DNA of 24,264 bases from IMG/VR virus record IMGVR_UViG_3300031973_001234, positions 1 through 24,264 of that record. One strand, 5' to 3'. Below the pieces are notes generated by a model. It was not told the origin of the DNA. It saw only the letters and a list, made by a program, of their open reading frames with translations, and did not search any database. Within the stretch, counting starts at the first letter, position 1. Each line of letters opens with the position of its first letter. A program made the position numbers and the translations under genes. Below, in pieces: positions 5,917 to 22,291 of this stretch. The stretch is from a virus.

Positions 5917-7422
5917 ATGAGTACAATCACTACAATCAATGATTCAGACCTAATATCAGCAAGTAATGAAGTAATCAATACGAACTTCAGCAACTTGAAC
6001 ACGGATAAAATTGAAACATCTGTACTTGATACTGATGGTACTCTTGCTGCGAATTCAGACTCTAAGGTCGCTACCCAAAAAGCTGTTAAAACGTATGTAG
6101 ATACAAACATTGATACTCGCACAACAGGCACTACAACAAGTGCTGTAAGTCCTACGATCAACACAGATACATATAAACGATACACACTTACGGCTCAGAA
6201 AACAGACATTTCATCTTTTACGACAAACCTTACGGGATCTCCGTCAGATGGAGATGAGCTTGGTCTAAGAATTACAAACGGTCTTAGTGCAATGTTGTTT
6301 ATATCTTCATCTGTGTATGATAACGCAGCATCCGATACAGCGATTGTTACAAAACCATCTGGAACAGCTAACGACGATATTATGTTTGCTGTTATTCAGA
6401 GTACAACAGCATATTCAAACTCCCTTCCAAGTGGGTGGACATCTATTGCACAAACAACAGCAGTAAGTGGATACTATGAGCTTTTGTATCGAGTAGCTTC
6501 TAGTGAGGGTGCGAACTATACATTTGGGTTTGCTGGTTCTTATAAGATAAAGGTAACTATTGCGACATATCGTGGAGGATTCAACATATCTGATCCAATC
6601 GATGTATTTTCAGATACTTCATATATAACAAGTAATACAACAAACAGAGCTGCATCAATGAATGTTACCTATAGAAATTCACCACTGCTTTTCTTTGGAT
6701 GTGTGTTAGAAAGTTCATCATTCACTCAAACAAAACCATCACTTCCAACTACAGGATGGGTAGAGGATTATGATGGTGGTTCAACAAACTCTGACTTCTG
6801 GCTTGAAATCTGCTCGATGACTTGGGCTGGAGTTGGTGCTACTGGCGATATGGATTCTACTATTTCGAGTGCAACAACAGAAAAACACGCTTTTGCAGTA
6901 GCTCTCAAGCCAGTGATTGAAGTTACTTACGGATCAAAATTCACATCATATGACGAAACACTCCCAACAGTAATTCCTTTTGGTGAAACAAAAGATATTG
7001 ATCTCGAATATAACTCAGCAGTTTCTAAGTGGGTAACAACAGGAAATATTCCAATTGATCCAAGATTTACAGTTGGTCAGACTACTTATGACATATCTAC
7101 AGCATCTGGTACACAGACAATTGCTCATGGATTGGGGCGACTCCCAAACCTTATTGATATCTCTGTTACTTATGGAGCATCAGGTGTTGGTCTTACAAGA
7201 TCACTCTACAACGCGGTAAGTGGATTTCAGTATAGTTACTACAATTATATTGACGATAGCACTGGTACAGATTCATCAAGTGGATCTACGTTTAGAATTT
7301 CAATGTCAGCATCTCAATACCAAGAGGGTGTCATCACTGTAGATTCTACAAATATCTACATTGCATGGACAAAGACAAGTACACCAACGGGAACAGCAGT
7401 AATCCTTTGGAAAGCAGAATAA
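5917..7422 (+). CDS. tail fibre / receptor-binding protein 3, 501 aa (MSTITTI module)
   Basis: The third member of the tandem family: residues 1-68 match the N-terminus of fibre 2, while the rest is unique. The central region (about 130-330) contains YTFGFAGSYKIKVTIATYRGG and ALKPVIEV-like stretches that resemble concanavalin-like or Ig-like surface modules. The C-terminal part (about 385-501) contains GTQTIAHGLGRLPNLIDISV, a motif often seen in phage tail-fibre C-termini (T-x-x-HGLGR-x-P). Likely a receptor-binding fibre. It starts 1 nt after the previous stop (TAATATG) and the next gene follows after 3 nt. Confidence 0.75.
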   Translation: MSTITTINDSDLISASNEVINTNFSNLNTDKIETSVLDTDGTLAANSDSKVATQKAVKTYVDTNIDTRTTGTTTSAVSPTINTDTYKRYTLTAQKTDISSFTTNLTGSPSDGDELGLRITNGLSAMLFISSSVYDNAASDTAIVTKPSGTANDDIMFAVIQSTTAYSNSLPSGWTSIAQTTAVSGYYELLYRVASSEGANYTFGFAGSYKIKVTIATYRGGFNISDPIDVFSDTSYITSNTTNRAASMNVTYRNSPLLFFGCVLESSSFTQTKPSLPTTGWVEDYDGGSTNSDFWLEICSMTWAGVGATGDMDSTISSATTEKHAFAVALKPVIEVTYGSKFTSYDETLPTVIPFGETKDIDLEYNSAVSKWVTTGNIPIDPRFTVGQTTYDISTASGTQTIAHGLGRLPNLIDISVTYGASGVGLTRSLYNAVSGFQYSYYNYIDDSTGTDSSSGSTFRISMSASQYQEGVITVDSTNIYIAWTKTSTPTGTAVILWKAE

Positions 7423-9212: not shown

Positions 9213-10802
9213 ATGGGAAAATTCAAAAGTAAAACAGGAAAATCAAGAGTCGGAACTGCACTATCTAAAATAGGTGGTGCTGTTAAAAAGGCGTCACAAT
9301 TCGGAGCACAAGGTGGATTAGTTGGAAAAGCTGTAGCATCTGCTAAGGGCTCTTACGGATCACAAGCAGGAAGCTCTGTAGGTTTTGGTTCAAAGCCACA
9401 AACAACACAGACAAAAGCTGTAGGTGTTTCTTATGGGCCTACTCCGAATACTCCAGAAGGACCTCAGCGATCTAGTGGAGGTGGATCATCTATATCTCAG
9501 GGAGGTGGATCATCACAAATCGTCTCTCGTGAACGTACACAGCCTGTAGTACCTGCGACTATAGGAGAAAAACCTGTTGTGGATATTCCAACAGTTCCAG
9601 TAGATCAGACAGACTATTTATCAATGATTCCACAAGCTCCGCAGACTCCATTAGATCAGTTTCAGGCACAGCAAAAGACAGATTTTGAAACAATGATGGA
9701 TAAGTTAGTAGCTCCTCCAAGTACAGAATCTATTTATGCACAAGCACAAAAAGAATCAGGTATCTTGAAAAAACAAGAAGAAGTAAACCGTCTTTCTGAA
9801 CAACTAAATATGATCCAGTCTACCGCACAGGCTAATCAGTTGAAGACTATTGGTCAGGGTCGCGGTATTCCCGAAGCTATTTTAGGTGGACAACAGGCTC
9901 AAATTGGTCGTGAGGCAGCTATTGCAGCACTTCCTGTATCTGCACAGCTCCAAGCTGCTCAAGGAAACCTAGAAATGGCAGAACAGAATCTCAATACACT
10001 ATTTTCTATCCGAAGTGCAGACGCTCGGGCTAAATATGAATATAAAAACAACCTTATAAAGTCAGTGTATGACTTCGCCAGTGGGCAACAGAAGCAAAAA
10101 CTTGATTACGCTATGAAGTTAGAGGATAGAAAGTATCAGGAAGAGCAAGCTCGAATTCAGTTTCAGAATGATCTATACAGAGATGGTCTAAAATCTGGTC
10201 TAACAAACATGAAACAGTTGAAAGAAATCTCAAACAATAAGAATGCTCAAGATGCTACTACTGCGATTCAGGCAAAAAATCTTCTCGATGAATACAACAC
10301 TATGGTTAAAAGTTTTGGTAGATCACCATCTATTTCACAACGAAAACAAGCTAATTCATTCCTAGTGAATGTGCTAGCCCCAAAACTATCTGTCGCTCTC
10401 GGTCAGGGTGGTATGACAGGTGATGAAGCTCAAGCAAAGATCGAATCTCTAGGACTAAAGGGTCTATGGAAACGAGAAAAGATCACAAAAAACAATATTG
10501 AGTCAACGCTTATGGGTATGAAGTCGCTTGCTAATACAAGTCTTCAGGCCTTAGATTCAGCATATCCAGGAGCATCAGATACGTTAGATATTTTCAAGAA
10601 TTATAAGATGGGCGATCTTCCAAAAGATCAACAGATTGGTCTCAAAAAAGCTGATGCTGTAAAAACTTTTGTTTCTAGTGGATATGATGATGGTACAATA
10701 TTGGAATACCTAAAAGTACAGAGTCCAAATAACTCAAACTACATACAATCACTTTATAATGAAGGTTATTCTTTAGAAGAAATAGCACAATATCTAAATT
10801 AA
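9213..10802 (+). CDS. internal virion / ejection protein candidate, 529 aa
   Basis: The product has a basic, Gly/Ser/Lys-rich N-terminus (residues 1-60), a low-complexity Pro/Gly/Ser/Gln linker (about 60-150, with two GGGSS units), and then a long mostly helical region (about 150-345) rich in Gln, Ala, Glu and Lys, followed by a helical C-terminus ending SLEEIAQYLN. There is no membrane segment or catalytic motif. Large helical Gln/Ala-rich proteins placed after the tail proteins are characteristic of podovirus internal proteins that are ejected with the DNA. The next gene starts 4 nt downstream in the same AAATATATGGCA context, so the two probably act together. Confidence 0.5.
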   Translation: MGKFKSKTGKSRVGTALSKIGGAVKKASQFGAQGGLVGKAVASAKGSYGSQAGSSVGFGSKPQTTQTKAVGVSYGPTPNTPEGPQRSSGGGSSISQGGGSSQIVSRERTQPVVPATIGEKPVVDIPTVPVDQTDYLSMIPQAPQTPLDQFQAQQKTDFETMMDKLVAPPSTESIYAQAQKESGILKKQEEVNRLSEQLNMIQSTAQANQLKTIGQGRGIPEAILGGQQAQIGREAAIAALPVSAQLQAAQGNLEMAEQNLNTLFSIRSADARAKYEYKNNLIKSVYDFASGQQKQKLDYAMKLEDRKYQEEQARIQFQNDLYRDGLKSGLTNMKQLKEISNNKNAQDATTAIQAKNLLDEYNTMVKSFGRSPSISQRKQANSFLVNVLAPKLSVALGQGGMTGDEAQAKIESLGLKGLWKREKITKNNIESTLMGMKSLANTSLQALDSAYPGASDTLDIFKNYKMGDLPKDQQIGLKKADAVKTFVSSGYDDGTILEYLKVQSPNNSNYIQSLYNEGYSLEEIAQYLN

Positions 10803-18546: not shown

Positions 18547-18568
18547 TCTTTTAAAATTAAAAAAATGA
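18536..18568 (+). CDS. possible 10-residue leader peptide MSQNLLKLKK
   Basis: ATG 18536 to TGA 18566-18568; the stop overlaps the next start as ATGA. The start lies 5 nt after TATAAT, so the mRNA may be leaderless here and translation of the next gene may depend on reinitiation. The opposite strand has a comparable start, MSQNTLITKH, at 18423. Confidence 0.3.
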   Translation: MSQNLLKLKK

Positions 18569-19890
18569 AAACAAAGGAAAAATCATTTGTGACTCAAAGA
18601 TACATAATCACATCCGTTCAATACGGAGCTACGGTAAACAAGAACTTCCTAAACAATCTGCTAGCATTTGCGAAAAAACACAACGTAGAACAACTCTACA
18701 CATTTGTAATGAATGGGCGTTTCAAGGATGATGACTTCCTTGATCCACTTATAGGACTCAATTTCTCGATTATAGATAGTGAAAAACTGAACCTGAATCT
18801 AAGGTGTAAGGATATGAAAATCCTGGCACAACAGATCAATCCCTTTACAGGGCTGGCTCAGAAACTATCGAGGGATTATTCCTACATTCTACCTTCACCA
18901 AAGATACGCTATATGTCCCTCGCTAACACTTCTAATAGCCCACGAGCGATTATGAGCACAGGCTCACTCACGAATGGAAGTTATAAGATGCACACAGCAC
19001 AGGGTCGGAAAGCGGATCAACAGCATCAATTTGGGTTTGTATATGTGGAAATAGAAAGTAATAAGATATTTCACGCATACCAAGTTGAGGCAACAAAGAA
19101 GGGAGACTTTCACTACATGACGGAGAAGTTCTATGGAGGCAAGAAATCCTATTCACAACCGCAAGCATTAGTTCTTGGAGATTGGCACACTGGAGACACC
19201 GATAAGAAAGTGAGAGATCGTGCTCTAGGTTTGATAAAGAAAATAAAACCAAAGCATGTCGTATTTCACGACTTATTTAATGGACTCGCAGTCAATCCCC
19301 ATGAAAAAGGACACCTGATTTCAGAACTGAGAAATTTTCAGCAAAGACGTAATTCCCTAGATAAAGAACTAAAAGATGTTTACAAGGAGATTTGTTTTTT
19401 TGCTAAAGAGTTCCCAGGAGTAAGGTTTCTAGTACCAGAAAGCAACCATGATTTATTCTTGGAGCGTTACATAGACTCGAAAGATTTTATGTATCACCCG
19501 CAGAATTTCTTGTTTGCGATGCAGATGCTACCGCATATGCTAAAGGGAAAGAGACCAACTCTTGAAATTGGATTATCGTTGTGTGGAGAAATACCTAGCA
19601 ACTTTAAATTCTTGAAAGAGGATGAGGAGTACCGAGTGCATGGCGTAGAGCTGGGCTATCATGGTCACCGTGGGTCAAATGGATCAAGAGGAACGTCTGC
19701 CCAATTCGACAGACTAAACCTGAAAATGATCACTGGCCACGAACACAGCCCTAAGTTGTATCAGAATGGAATGGTAGTTGGAACATCAACACTACTAAAA
19801 CTTCCCTACACTAAAGGAGCTGGATCATGGATGCACGCTCACGGAATCTTGTATGATGATGGAAAGTATGGTTTGATTATTGTAATTTGA
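18565..19890 (+). CDS. metallophosphoesterase, similar to the T5 A1 DNA-degradation protein
   Basis: The 441-residue product has the motifs of calcineurin-like phosphoesterases in order: GDWH (205-208), HDLFNG (235-240), SNHD (293-296, the GNHD box with Ser), YHGHRG (365-370) and GHEHS (391-395). These residues bind two metal ions. Large metallophosphoesterases of this kind are found in T5-like phages as A1, needed for host DNA degradation early after infection; the similarity is judged from motif spacing and flanks such as KMITGHEHSPKLY and WMHAHGILYDDG. The N-terminal 195 residues form a separate domain I do not recognise. It could instead be a repair-type nuclease. Strong promoters precede it and a terminator follows. 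Confidence 0.7.
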   Translation: MKTKEKSFVTQRYIITSVQYGATVNKNFLNNLLAFAKKHNVEQLYTFVMNGRFKDDDFLDPLIGLNFSIIDSEKLNLNLRCKDMKILAQQINPFTGLAQKLSRDYSYILPSPKIRYMSLANTSNSPRAIMSTGSLTNGSYKMHTAQGRKADQQHQFGFVYVEIESNKIFHAYQVEATKKGDFHYMTEKFYGGKKSYSQPQALVLGDWHTGDTDKKVRDRALGLIKKIKPKHVVFHDLFNGLAVNPHEKGHLISELRNFQQRRNSLDKELKDVYKEICFFAKEFPGVRFLVPESNHDLFLERYIDSKDFMYHPQNFLFAMQMLPHMLKGKRPTLEIGLSLCGEIPSNFKFLKEDEEYRVHGVELGYHGHRGSNGSRGTSAQFDRLNLKMITGHEHSPKLYQNGMVVGTSTLLKLPYTKGAGSWMHAHGILYDDGKYGLIIVI

Positions 19891-19892
19891 GT

Positions 19893-19925
19893 AAAAGCCC
19901 CTATCTATGAAGACGGGGGCTTTTT
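19893..19925. terminator. bidirectional intrinsic terminator
   Basis: AAAAGCCCC (19893-19901) pairs with GGGGCTTTT (19916-19924); T-runs follow on both strands. It ends the rightward phosphoesterase gene and, read leftward, the HNH gene. The TGA stop of the phosphoesterase gene lies just before the stem, which supports TGA as a true stop. Confidence 0.85.
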
Positions 19926-20373
19926 ACTTCCGCTTATTAGTATTCTGTTCCTGATATGTAGCCCATCTGCAATTTTCCTTGCAATAATTTCCATCATTAT
20001 CTATTCTATCCAATGTTGTTTGCCTATGTCCAAATATGTTTTTATGATCTATAAAACTATCAAACATGTCATTTTTGAACTCTAAGTAAGACTTCCATAA
20101 ACACCTTATCCCTCTTTGAGCATAATTTTTGTAGTGTTTACCTTTTACTGAATTACATCTACTGATCATTTTTTGGTACTTCAAATAAAGGCCATTATCC
20201 TTACTCATTATATAATCTACTGTTCTTTTGATTATTTTCTCTCTATTCTCTTTATAATATTGCTTTCTTATTTCTCTTATTTTTTCTACATTATTTAAAT
20301 AATACTCGTGCCTCTCTTTACTGTAACGGTTTCTGTAATAACTATTTCTAGTCTCCCTATCTTTATATGGCAT
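19924..20373 (-). CDS. HNH homing-endonuclease-like protein, 149 aa (leftward)
   Basis: On the minus strand ATG 20373 to TAA 19924-19926. The N-terminal 55 residues are a very basic helical region rich in Tyr, Arg and Lys (YYRNRYSKERHEYYLNN). The central and C-terminal part has the pattern of phage HNH proteins: YQKMISRCNS, NYAQRGIRCLW (about 83-93), and TLDRIDNDGNYCKENCRWAT (120-139) with conserved Asp, Asn and Cys. These are DNA-binding nucleases that spread as free-standing homing genes. The gene is clearly more AT-rich than its neighbours and is oriented against them, signs of recent acquisition. A perfect 15-bp inverted repeat precedes it. Confidence 0.75.
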   Translation of the reverse strand: MPYKDRETRNSYYRNRYSKERHEYYLNNVEKIREIRKQYYKENREKIIKRTVDYIMSKDNGLYLKYQKMISRCNSVKGKHYKNYAQRGIRCLWKSYLEFKNDMFDSFIDHKNIFGHRQTTLDRIDNDGNYCKENCRWATYQEQNTNKRK

Positions 20374-20382
20374 AAATTAACA

Positions 20383-20425
20383 ACATAGATGACGATACGC
20401 TTTGCAAGTATATCGTCATCTATGT
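20383..20425. repeat. perfect 15-bp inverted repeat, 13-nt loop
   Basis: ACATAGATGACGATA (20383-20397) is the exact reverse complement of 20411-20425. It lies 9 nt upstream of the HNH start codon (20373, leftward), so it would form a 5' leader hairpin. TTTGCAA occurs in its loop and again just outside (20425-20431). No T-run follows on either strand, so it is not a terminator. Confidence 0.75.
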
Positions 20426-20465
20426 TTGCAAAGCTGATAACAATATAATTGTAATATATAGAAAT

Positions 20466-20494
20466 AAAAAAGCCTAATCACTTAGGCTTTTTTT
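20466..20494. terminator. bidirectional intrinsic terminator
   Basis: AAAAAAGCCTAA (20466-20477), loop TCAC, TTAGGCTTTTTT (20482-20493), one more T. Perfect 12-bp stem with T-runs on both strands. The stop codon of the leftward 25-residue peptide lies in the loop. Confidence 0.85.
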
Positions 20495-20728: not shown

Positions 20729-20757
20729 AGTATGAACTTATCAACAGTTTGATGCAA
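20729..20757 (-). promoter_or_regulatory. leftward promoter TTGCAT-N17-CATACT
   Basis: On the minus strand TTGCAT (20757-20752), 17 nt, CATACT (20734-20729), then TATA. Hexamers and spacer equal those of the promoter at 17262-17290. It serves the leftward zinc-ribbon gene. A TTATCAACA box overlaps the spacer. Confidence 0.65.
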
Positions 20758-20770
20758 TTAGTTATACACA
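20738..20770 (+). promoter_or_regulatory. two DnaA-box-like nonamers between divergent promoters
   Basis: TTATCAACA (20738-20746, relaxed) and TTATACACA (20762-20770, exact TTATNCACA) lie in the same orientation 24 nt apart, between the leftward promoter and the rightward -10 at 20788. Confidence 0.45.
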
Positions 20771-20787
20771 TAGTCAAGGAATAATTG

Positions 20788-20793
20788 TATAAT
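20788..20793 (+). promoter_or_regulatory. -10 box TATAAT for a possible leaderless mini-gene
   Basis: A perfect TATAAT 8 nt upstream of ATG 20801. No good -35 is seen at the normal distance. The predicted start lies at or beside the A of ATG. Confidence 0.45.
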
Positions 20794-20800
20794 AATATCA

Positions 20801-20908
20801 ATGGCTGGAGTGCAAATCGATCACCCTCTGGCAAAATTGTTCTTTAGCGGAAAAACCGCACTCTTCATTGATAGGGCAAACCTACGAGCAAACATGATGT
20901 TTTTATAG
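20801..20908 (+). CDS. 35-residue ORF resembling the N-terminal strand of a NYN/LabA-like domain
   Basis: ATG 20801 to TAG 20906-20908 encodes MAGVQIDHPLAKLFFSGKTA and then LFIDRANLRANMMFL. The LFID-x-ANL part resembles the first strand and catalytic Asp of NYN (LabA/DUF88) nucleases, usually written FIDG-x-N. Nothing that continues such a domain follows in any frame before the terminator at 20933-20964. It may be a truncated remnant, a true micropeptide, or a chance frame inside a small RNA. It contains the hairpin GCGG-AAAAA-CCGC. Confidence 0.35.
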   Translation: MAGVQIDHPLAKLFFSGKTALFIDRANLRANMMFL

Positions 20909-20932
20909 AATGAAACCAACTCTCGTGATCAG

Positions 20933-20964
20933 AAAAAGGCACTTCCAGCGTGGAGTGCCTTTTT
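20933..20964. terminator. bidirectional intrinsic terminator
   Basis: The arm 20933-20947 (AAAAAGGCACTTCCA, one bulged T) pairs with TGGAGTGCCTTTTT (20951-20964) around loop GCG. T-runs occur on both strands. It closes the rightward 35-residue unit and a leftward non-coding unit starting near 21063. Confidence 0.85.
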
Positions 20965-21063
20965 CGTTCTAGATTTATTGCAATTCAGTTGTTCTTCGCT
21001 ACTGAAAAACGGTGAGTTTGTACAATGACAGCATGTTCACAAGTACCGCGAGATACCTGTGTA
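20933..21063 (-). ncRNA. candidate small RNA, about 130 nt (leftward)
   Basis: A complete promoter on the minus strand (21098-21070) would start transcription near 21063, and the terminator at 20964-20933 would end it. The interval holds no frame longer than 11 codons from an ATG on that strand. Local pairing includes TTCAG/CTGAA (rightward positions 20988-21006). A TGTGTATAA box (21058-21066) covers the start site. A small RNA is the simplest reading; it could also be the leader of a gene terminated early. Confidence 0.4.
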
Positions 21064-21232: not shown

Positions 21233-21580
21233 ATGGTTCCAATAGCACCTAAAGATAAAGAAATAATTTCCACTGATCCATACTACAAAAAGTGTGCTCG
21301 CGCAGAAGATGGTGGCTGTGCTGGTAGAATCACCATTGAACATGCCTGTACCTATGCAGGAAAACAAATAGCAGAGCTATGGAATTATGTTCCTATATGT
21401 GAGTATCATCATGGCGTTCTATCATTTCAGGATAGAGGAGATCTAATAAAAGAAAAGAATGTATGGATCGCACTAAACCAGGCTACTGACGAGGAGTTAA
21501 ACAAATTTTACAAATCAGATTTTAAACAGAGAAAACAATACCTAAATTCAAAGTATGGGACATATAATCATTCAAGGTAG
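21233..21580 (+). CDS. HNH-type nuclease-like protein, 115 aa
   Basis: The product has a zinc/HNH core: C21 and C29 (CARAEDGGC), ITIEHAC with H37 as probable first HNH histidine, then WNYVPICEYHH (50-60) with N51, C56, H59 and H60. This H-N-H-like order with Cys metal ligands fits small phage HNH proteins. The remainder is a basic helical tail (FKQRKQYLNSKYGTYNHSR). Placed directly before RusA and overlapping it by 26 nt, it may process recombination or packaging intermediates, or replace a nin-region protein; that is inference. It is not similar to the leftward HNH gene at 19924. Confidence 0.6.
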   Translation: MVPIAPKDKEIISTDPYYKKCARAEDGGCAGRITIEHACTYAGKQIAELWNYVPICEYHHGVLSFQDRGDLIKEKNVWIALNQATDEELNKFYKSDFKQRKQYLNSKYGTYNHSR

Positions 21581-21908
21581 AATCCCGAGCAAAAAGAATA
21601 GTACTTGGACAGTCATGGTTCGTGGTAGAGCCATACGTTTACCTTCTCAAAAATATAAAGAATGGAATAATGATGCTAAGCAACAATTAATCGGTCAAGA
21701 CAAAATTCCAAATGGAAGCCATCTTGTTCTCCATTTCTACATGCCAGACAAACGAAGGGCTGATCTCACTAATAAAGCAGAAAGTATTATGGATACGTTA
21801 GTGGATTCTGGACTCCTAGAAGATGATTCATATCAAATCATTCCAAACCTCATGCTTGAATTTATGGGAATTGATAAAGAAAATCCAAGGTGCGAAGTTT
21901 TTTGGTAG
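21555..21908 (+). CDS. rusA: RusA-family Holliday junction resolvase
   Basis: The 117-residue product has the RusA signature: IPSKKNS (10-16, near the N-terminal strand), then RRADLTNKAESIMDTLVDSG (68-87) and LLEDDSYQI (88-96). Asp70, Asp80 and Asp90/91 are candidates for the metal-binding acidic residues. The usual DxDN box reads DLTN here, a variant I recall from many phage RusA-like proteins. Length (about 120 aa) fits the family. RusA dimers cut four-way junctions to resolve branched DNA before packaging. The gene overlaps the HNH gene by 26 nt and is followed at once by a DnaA-like box. Confidence 0.88.
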   Translation: MGHIIIQGRIPSKKNSTWTVMVRGRAIRLPSQKYKEWNNDAKQQLIGQDKIPNGSHLVLHFYMPDKRRADLTNKAESIMDTLVDSGLLEDDSYQIIPNLMLEFMGIDKENPRCEVFW

Positions 21909-21909
21909 T

Positions 21910-21918
21910 TTATCCACA
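21910..21918 (+). promoter_or_regulatory. DnaA-box-like nonamer TTATCCACA
   Basis: An exact match to the strong DnaA box, 1 nt after the rusA stop codon and 18 nt before the -35 of the next promoter. Confidence 0.45.
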
Positions 21919-21936: not shown

Positions 21937-21966
21937 TTGCGCGCTTGACTTTATTTTTGGTATGAT
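21937..21966 (+). promoter_or_regulatory. promoter TTGCGC-N18-TATGAT, extended -10
   Basis: TTGCGC at 21937-21942, 18-nt spacer ending TGG, TATGAT at 21961-21966. Transcription would start near 21973, just ahead of the two-hairpin RNA. Confidence 0.55.
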
Positions 21967-21972
21967 TAGAGT

Positions 21973-22056
21973 ACAAGCAAATATACATGATTCTGTGGAA
22001 GGAATCGTGAACAGCAATGCCCGCCTTTCCTTCCACAAGGACGGGCATTTTTGTTT
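21973..22056 (+). ncRNA. candidate kissing-loop RNA ending in an intrinsic terminator
   Basis: Hairpin 1: CATGATTC (21986-21993) pairs with GAATCGTG (22002-22009), one T-G pair, loop TGTGGAAG (21994-22001). Hairpin 2: AATGCCCGCCTT (22016-22027) pairs with 22037-22049 (12 bp, bulged A 22041), loop TCCTTCCAC (22028-22036), followed by TTTGTTT. GTGGAAG of loop 1 is the exact complement of CTTCCAC in loop 2 (7 bp). Hairpin 2 is an intrinsic terminator. The unit has a promoter and no sizeable frame. It may be a small RNA, a self-dimerising RNA or an attenuator for what follows. Confidence 0.6.
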
Positions 22057-22291
22057 ATCCTAACCAAGTCTAATGCTGAAGACATCCTCTGGGATTAAAA
22101 AGAGAGGAGGCAAGCGTACAATCGACACAATGGCTCCATAAACGAAGTTCTGCTCTTTATTATCTCAATAGCTCATCAATCATTTGCAAGGACTGATTGA
22201 ACGCACTAAATACTAAGTAAAATATAACTTCGTTTTGGTGAATTGGAGAGATTGGGGGTTGGTGGTTTTGTATATACCATAGTACATACAC
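22057..22291. other. gap between the structured RNA and the early operon
   Basis: This stretch follows the terminator hairpin. It holds a 22-codon frame (22073-22141, MLKTSSGIKKRGGKRTIDTM then AP), basic and unsupported, an AGAGAGGAGG sequence (22101-22110) that looks like a Shine-Dalgarno site but has no suitable start after it, and the nested inverted repeat described separately. Toward its end TATATACC (22271-22278) may be a -10 for the operon beginning at 22292. No tRNA was found. Confidence 0.35.
22136..22238. repeat. nested inverted repeats, about 103 nt
   Basis: AAACGAAGTT (22140-22149) is the exact reverse complement of 22226-22235; with one bulged T, CCA/TGG extends it to 13 bp (22136-22238). 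Inside, TCAATCA (22176-22182) pairs with TGATTGA (22194-22200). This could fold as a structured RNA or as a cruciform/protein-binding site. No gene lies within it. Confidence 0.5.

Follow-up and report, generated by a model that had tools for sequence, protein, structure and literature searches.

The phage sequence analysed here probably encodes a new small non-coding RNA of tailed phages, which would be transcribed from its own promoter, in which kissing between two hairpin loops has been selected, and whose most likely form is a closed homodimer. An earlier, sequence-only reading of this DNA had pointed to a small autonomous RNA with loop complementarity that is no accident, a suggestion that now appears supported by a copy in a related phage, G040, that keeps the loop complementarity, stems, promoter and terminator.

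The element and its surroundings

The window, meaning the whole stretch of DNA that was analysed, is an entire IMG/VR virus record of 24,264 bases classed as linear. To judge from its sequence, the source is a tailed phage. The proteins that serve as landmarks here are the following.

1565-2419: major head protein
18565-19890: T5 A1-like DNA transfer protein
19924-20373, minus strand: HNH endonuclease
21555-21908: RusA

Other products include tail-fibre-like proteins, an M15 peptidase and a lytic transglycosylase. No tRNA gene was found in the whole window, and a search against Rfam 15 families returned no match in it at the gathering cut-off. The free-standing HNH gene is flanked by strong inverted repeats (19893-19924, 20382-20434 and 20466-20493), and gene and repeats together (19893-20493) look like a mobile insertion between two phage genes.

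The two-hairpin element lies 3' of the RusA gene, inside a 383-nt intergenic stretch, and is followed by 240 nt of non-coding DNA, with small ORFs after 22060. Farther 3', at 22140-22235, a 10-nt perfect inverted repeat (AAACGAAGTT/AACTTCGTTT) surrounds a smaller hairpin whose fold is weakly significant (z -1.5). The parts of the element, all on the plus strand, are as follows.

21910..21918, +: TTATCCACA box (DnaA-box consensus), upstream promoter element, 42 nt before the -10
21958..21966, +: extended -10 TGGTATGAT, TGNTATRAT motif
21973..22053, +: predicted transcript of ~81 nt with no credible ORF; predicted start set 7 nt past the -10, predicted end at the U tract
21986..22009, +: hairpin 1, 8-bp stem and 8-nt loop UGUGGAAG, from the fold
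21994..22004, +: segment UGUGGAAGGAA, complementary to the terminator loop; 8 nt of loop 1 plus 3 nt of stem
22010..22015, +: linker of 6 nt, AACAGC (GUCAGA, of equal length, in G040), from the alignment
22016..22049, +: hairpin 2, the intrinsic terminator, 12-bp stem with one bulge, loop UCCUUCCAC
22027..22037, +: segment UUCCUUCCACA, partner of 21994-22004
22048..22056, +: terminator U tract TTTTTGTTT

The minimum-energy fold consists of exactly these two hairpins (-27.8 kcal/mol, z = -4.2; 0/200 shuffles as stable), which confirms the pair, 6 nt apart, that the sequence-only reading had described. Hairpin 1 reads CATGATTC, loop TGTGGAAG, GAATCGTG. Hairpin 2 reads AATGCCCGCCTT, loop TCCTTCCAC, AAGG-A-CGGGCATT, then TTTTTGTTT; its inner stem, CCUU/AAGG, is kept in G040, and with its G+C-rich hairpin and U run it is the intrinsic terminator it had been taken for. 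The 7-nt loop complementarity already noticed (GTGGAAG/CTTCCAC) was correct and understated: pairing between the loops reaches 8 nt if the base beside loop 2 is included, and uninterrupted complementarity, between TGTGGAAGGAA (21994-22004) and TTCCTTCCACA (22027-22037), extends to 11 nt.

Such complementarity had been called unlikely by chance, and the controls agree. In 1500 dinucleotide shuffles of the window, adjacent hairpins with at least 8 nt of loop complementarity never arose, and those with 7 nt arose 4 times. Among 718 distinct viral terminators the window element alone, with its 11 nt, had a loop complementary over more than 8 nt to upstream sequence; the maximum in shuffled-upstream controls (n=2154) was 9 nt. 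Because the element was chosen by eye, these figures by themselves are suggestive and short of proof.

A homolog with compensatory changes

Relatives of the phage were gathered by the A1-like protein (n=5, 50-60% identity) and by the major head protein (n=37, 59-70%). BLAST of the element-region DNA against them gave nothing. We also built a covariance model, R1, from the window element alone, with both hairpins as its structure; this model is blind to the loop pairing. Direct cmsearch of the relatives with R1 recovered one full-length match (26.1 bits, E 1.6e-4 in 443 kb) at L201 9026-8954 (-), a locus that is also L136 3223-3295 (+), in phage G040 (IMGVR_UViG_3300035670_000433). G040 is the closest A1 relative, its A1-like protein being 60% identical to that of the window. 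All 20 modelled pairs are kept in the match, which reads CAUAAACU, loop AUUCAGG, AGUUUGUG; GUCAGA; AAAACCUACCUU, loop CCUGAAU, AAGG-UGGGUUUU. Its minimum-energy fold (-26.1 kcal/mol, z -4.4) is again two hairpins, with exactly both 7-nt loops, and these loops, though scored by R1 as mismatches, are perfect reverse complements (7/7).

The sequence-only reading had proposed a covariance search for compensatory changes in the loops, and had named homologs that keep the hairpins and lose the loop complementarity as the result that would speak against it. The single homolog found retains the complementarity in full. Counted by hand by position in the kissing helix, 4/7 loop-loop pairs differ from the window on both sides (G-C to A-U, G-C to U-A, G-C to C-G and A-U to G-C) and 3/7 are unchanged; an automatic count, confined to the 4 column-aligned loop-loop pairs, finds 2/4 changed on both sides. 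The stems show the same pattern. Hairpin 1 keeps 8/8 stem pairs, 4 of which have both bases replaced; the terminator stem keeps 12/12, with both bases replaced in 3 pairs and a single base in 1. Over the whole structure the two-sequence alignment has 24 pairs, 100% paired, of which 9 are changed on both sides; 0/500 shuffles did as well, and slid alignments were 36-52% paired. Also conserved are the lengths of the stems (8 and 12) and of the linker (6), together with the basal CAU/GUG. The U-G wobble kept in stem 1 and the change from C-G to U-G in stem 2 indicate that the plus-strand RNA is the folded form. We rejected a role at the level of DNA, as a cruciform for RusA, since the G040 copy has no known adjacent RusA and the G-U pairs fit only plus-strand RNA. 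A leader peptide (ATG ATT CTG TGG AAG GAA TCG TGA at 21987) was likewise discarded, as no such peptide is evident in G040.

An architecture scan that uses no window sequence, looking for a hairpin, a gap and a terminator-like hairpin with complementary loops, covered 0.89 Mb of relatives and found only the window and G040 elements at 9 nt, the next two being at 7 nt. As a first form of the scan did not recover the G040 copy, we loosened its pairing filter, so that the thresholds are not blind; the shuffles passed through the same loosened filter, and in 5.3 Mb of them none exceeded 7. Among unrelated loci, 0.31 Mb in all, one element reached 8 (L131).

A model built from both elements, R2, matched nothing in 47 unrelated virus records and two distant A1-bearing phages. 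With R2, generic terminators of a Chloroflexi genome also score 25-32 bits, and we set these matches aside as they are without hairpin 1. Because score alone is thus not diagnostic, the claim of homology rests jointly on stem and loop covariation, lengths and promoter. We saw no copy in some forty further related records, many of which are fragmentary. The family is known from two members, so that the covariation is one comparison. Negatives from a fast genome search with R1 carry little weight, since it failed to detect the G040 copy that direct cmsearch finds. Searches for relatives by RusA, HNH and two downstream proteins returned none in viral contigs or the phage collection, with only distant relatives for RusA.

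Several further candidates were rejected. Weak R1/R2 matches in L139/L206 (inside the A1 gene), L182, L192, L199, L200 and L201:3754 have no kissing loops, and loop-pair candidates of 6-7 nt in other relatives look like coding-sequence coincidences. Scans of viral contigs and bacterial genomes with loop-sequence patterns gave, among the matches listed, ordinary long inverted repeats, coding sequence or chance matches and no homologs. That the loops are not conserved as sequence fits their covariation.

Another phage offers a different arrangement on two related contigs, at L131 3285-3390 (+) and on the minus strand of L093 at ~6090-6190, where TATAAT and TGTGGAAGGC are followed by a very long terminator hairpin. 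The apical loop of that hairpin holds GCCTTCCACA, a 10-nt complement, and might form a pseudoknot with the RNA's own 5' end. It is probably an independent analogue.

The second copy also bears on the simplest alternative, an ordinary promoter-proximal hairpin and terminator whose loops happen to be complementary in both phages. Terminator-containing hairpins are common, a single-sequence observation chosen post hoc is weak, and one unrelated control contig (L131) does have an 8-nt loop pair. Yet the chance is at most ~0.005 per window in the first case and ~6e-5, the figure for 7/7 complementarity between random 7-mers, in the second, while stems, lengths and promoter are homologous independently of the loops. 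Coincidence is nearly refuted, and we hold it to be very improbable.

Since the two loops changed together yet stayed complementary, it is their pairing within one RNA species, and not pairing with a third RNA, that would have been kept by selection, and we regard loop 1-loop 2 pairing as the likely selected feature. The loops could in principle target another host or phage RNA and match each other only incidentally. Antisense RNAs typically carry such loops, and 7-mers matching those seen here occur elsewhere in both genomes; these occur, however, at about chance frequency, and self-pairing explains the concerted change with no third partner. A trans-acting antisense RNA therefore seems to us highly unlikely.

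Predicted promoter and transcription unit

The promoter that the sequence-only reading proposed, TTGCGC-N18-TATGAT, is present as described, but its -35 is poor and probably not the real upstream element; the convincing parts are the extended -10 and the TTATCCACA box. On this strand of the window TGNTATRAT occurs at 937, 9188, 12599 and 21958, all intergenic, the first three just 5' of a gene start. A composite promoter is common to the phage group, in which TTATCCACA is followed after 31-33 or 41-42 nt by TANAAT and, shortly after, by a start codon. We find it in the window at 21910, 20738 and 18464, in L201 (-) at 10106, 9078, 8729, 6929 and 6339, and further at L200 (-) 17380 and L199 (-) 7743. 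Of the 8 transcribed-strand boxes in G040, 6 are followed by a -10 after exactly 31 or 41 nt. The TTATCCACA box resembles a binding site for an activator, which could be DnaA itself or a phage protein reading the same box. G039 carries TTATCCACA-N33-TGGTATGAT; this match (L199 7743) was rejected as a copy of the RNA, as it precedes a protein gene.

The two RNA promoters are TTATCCACA-N42-TATGAT in the window and TTATCCACA-N31-TATAAT in G040, with spacings that differ by about one helical turn. From the placement of the composite promoter, the predicted units begin at most 13 nt 5' of hairpin 1 and finish at hairpin 2. Both copies are thus predicted autonomous RNA units of ~70-85 nt with a strong terminator and no credible ORF. 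Shine-Dalgarno sequences are nearly absent from the window genes, where an AT-rich ...TAT-ATG precedes the starts, and some -10 elements in G040 lie so near the ATG that the mRNAs would have little or no leader.

A second candidate non-coding RNA of ~170 nt lies at 20738-20967 (+) in the window, with the promoter TTATCAACA-N41-TATAAT, a closing stem ATCAATG...CATTGAT and a strong terminator at 20932-20965 (fold z ~ -2.1); it has no Rfam match at cut-off.

The contexts of the two copies differ, the one following RusA in the window and the other preceding a tRNA-Met in G040 that begins 8 nt past the element's U tract. The tRNA beside the G040 copy suggests a role for the RNA in or near the phage translation or tRNA module. 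That stretch of G040 (L136 3302-5200) holds the tRNA-Met, an apparent RNA ligase gene, which from its sequence we take to be RtcB, and tRNA-Gln, -Pro, -Phe and -Leu. A tRNA module with its own RNA ligase perhaps counters a tRNA-cutting defence.

Proposed mechanism of loop pairing

It is possible that loop 1 kisses the terminator loop, on the same nascent RNA or in trans, and so tunes read-through into downstream genes in the manner of a leader or attenuator. The G040 tRNA-Met would need read-through or an upstream transcript, there being no promoter room in the 8 nt, and kissing in one chain could occur with some fraying. The two copies, however, have no downstream gene in common, the window continuing instead into its non-coding DNA; each copy has a strong terminator, neither a ligand domain nor a leader peptide is conserved, and the kissing pairs leave the terminator arms unsequestered. 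We consider attenuation unlikely.

Alternatively, the 9-11-nt complementarity might be used in full, as a helix that displaces hairpin 1 and disrupts the terminator in the manner of a classical antiterminator. In the window this helix is the most stable structure at transcript lengths of 63-72 (up to -22.5 kcal/mol), and even at full length the gap is only 4 kcal/mol. In G040, on the other hand, it loses by 9.5 kcal/mol in the full-length RNA and wins only at about 52-56 nt, and the complementarity there extends beyond the 7-nt loops by a single closing pair on each side. Compensatory changes in both stems, moreover, argue that the two-hairpin state is itself selected. We give this switch little credence. 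Kissing of intact hairpins is preferred to one long helix because the long helix is poor in G040 and both stems are kept by compensatory changes.

Under the kissing model, transcription from the composite promoter (the TTATCCACA box and the -10) would stop at the RNA's own terminator and yield ~70-85 nt. Seven consecutive Watson-Crick pairs between the loops would then stack the stems into a near-coaxial rod of 27-28 bp, with 8 pairs giving the longer end. By a crude A-form estimate the ends of a coaxial rod lie 75 A apart, or 58 A with a 60-degree bend, while the 6-nt linker reaches ~44 A. Kissing in cis is disfavoured because the linker hardly spans the rod ends without fraying or a bend of ~85-90 degrees; fraying of ~3 bp of stem 1 together with moderate bending makes it feasible in the same geometric estimate. 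In trans, loop 1 of molecule A would kiss loop 2 of molecule B, and loop 1 of B loop 2 of A, closing a two-fold symmetric dimer of two parallel rods of equal length, or larger rings. Each linker of the dimer would cross only between neighbouring rod ends. This modelled geometry makes us lean towards intermolecular over cis kissing, a choice that the sequence-only reading had not made. Such a dimer, produced in infected cells, would form a compact RNA particle that probably resists nucleases. We therefore offer, as a tentative and somewhat less than even proposition, a minimal self-assembling phage RNA of ~75 nt, in which the terminator loop and loop 1 kiss between molecules to give closed homodimers or rings. 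If this reading is true, it would be, to our knowledge, the smallest natural homo-oligomeric phage RNA.

Comparison with known systems

In phi29 pRNA (Rfam phage_pRNA), the precedent that the sequence-only reading had named, two loops associate between molecules to give dimers and rings. The window and G040 elements share with it two mutually complementary loops on one phage RNA. The pRNA is larger, however, with a three-way junction, a 5'/3' helix and a motor-binding helix, and its kissing partner is not a terminator hairpin; the window and G040 folds are two simple hairpins, with no three-way junction and no Rfam match. Nothing in the type of phage or in the genes around the element points to a role in packaging.

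The ColE1 RNAs RNAI and RNAII pair through fully complementary 7-nt kissing loops, with their stems stacked on the loop-loop helix. The G040 loops are also 7 nt and fully complementary, but the ColE1 loops sit on two antisense RNAs and those described here on one RNA, as though the ColE1 kissing pair had been put into a single molecule. Yfr10 (RF02362) resembles the element in its 8-bp 5' hairpin, short linker and terminator hairpin; its model gives 25.4 bits against a cut-off of 43 for the G040 copy only, the best weak G040 match, and none for the window element, whose own best weak Rfam match is a microRNA family (20.3 of 88 bits). At the Rfam cut-off neither element has a match, and the one hit is the tRNA neighbouring the G040 copy. 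The cyanobacterial Yfr1 and Yfr2 are described in one account as having nearly complementary motifs (PMC6778093). Those motifs sit on different RNAs.

RNA-only complexes of the phage RNAs GOLLD and ROOL have been seen in structures only recently. If an ~80-nt RNA of two hairpins self-associates, it would provide an easy handle on why phages make such RNAs, often beside tRNA genes. The element suggests that a terminator loop can be selected for tertiary or quaternary pairing, the terminator being an assembly interface if the RNA does self-assemble, and that a kissing-aware scan can find such elements where covariance models limited to secondary structure would miss them. A natural self-complementary unit of two hairpins may also be of interest to RNA nanotechnology.

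GOLLD, ROOL and OLE form homo-oligomers, and covariation conserves their intermolecular contacts, kissing loops among them; GOLLD and ROOL are phage or prophage RNAs often near tRNA islands (PMC12286853). The G040 copy similarly stands beside a tRNA-Met, and its loop-loop covariation is seen here, while geometry suggests that the contact is intermolecular. Those RNAs have hundreds of nucleotides and elaborate folds, in contrast to an element of two hairpins and 70-85 nt that matches no family model. By analogy, the element would be a functional counterpart in miniature to phi29 pRNA, GOLLD and ROOL, without belonging to any of these families.
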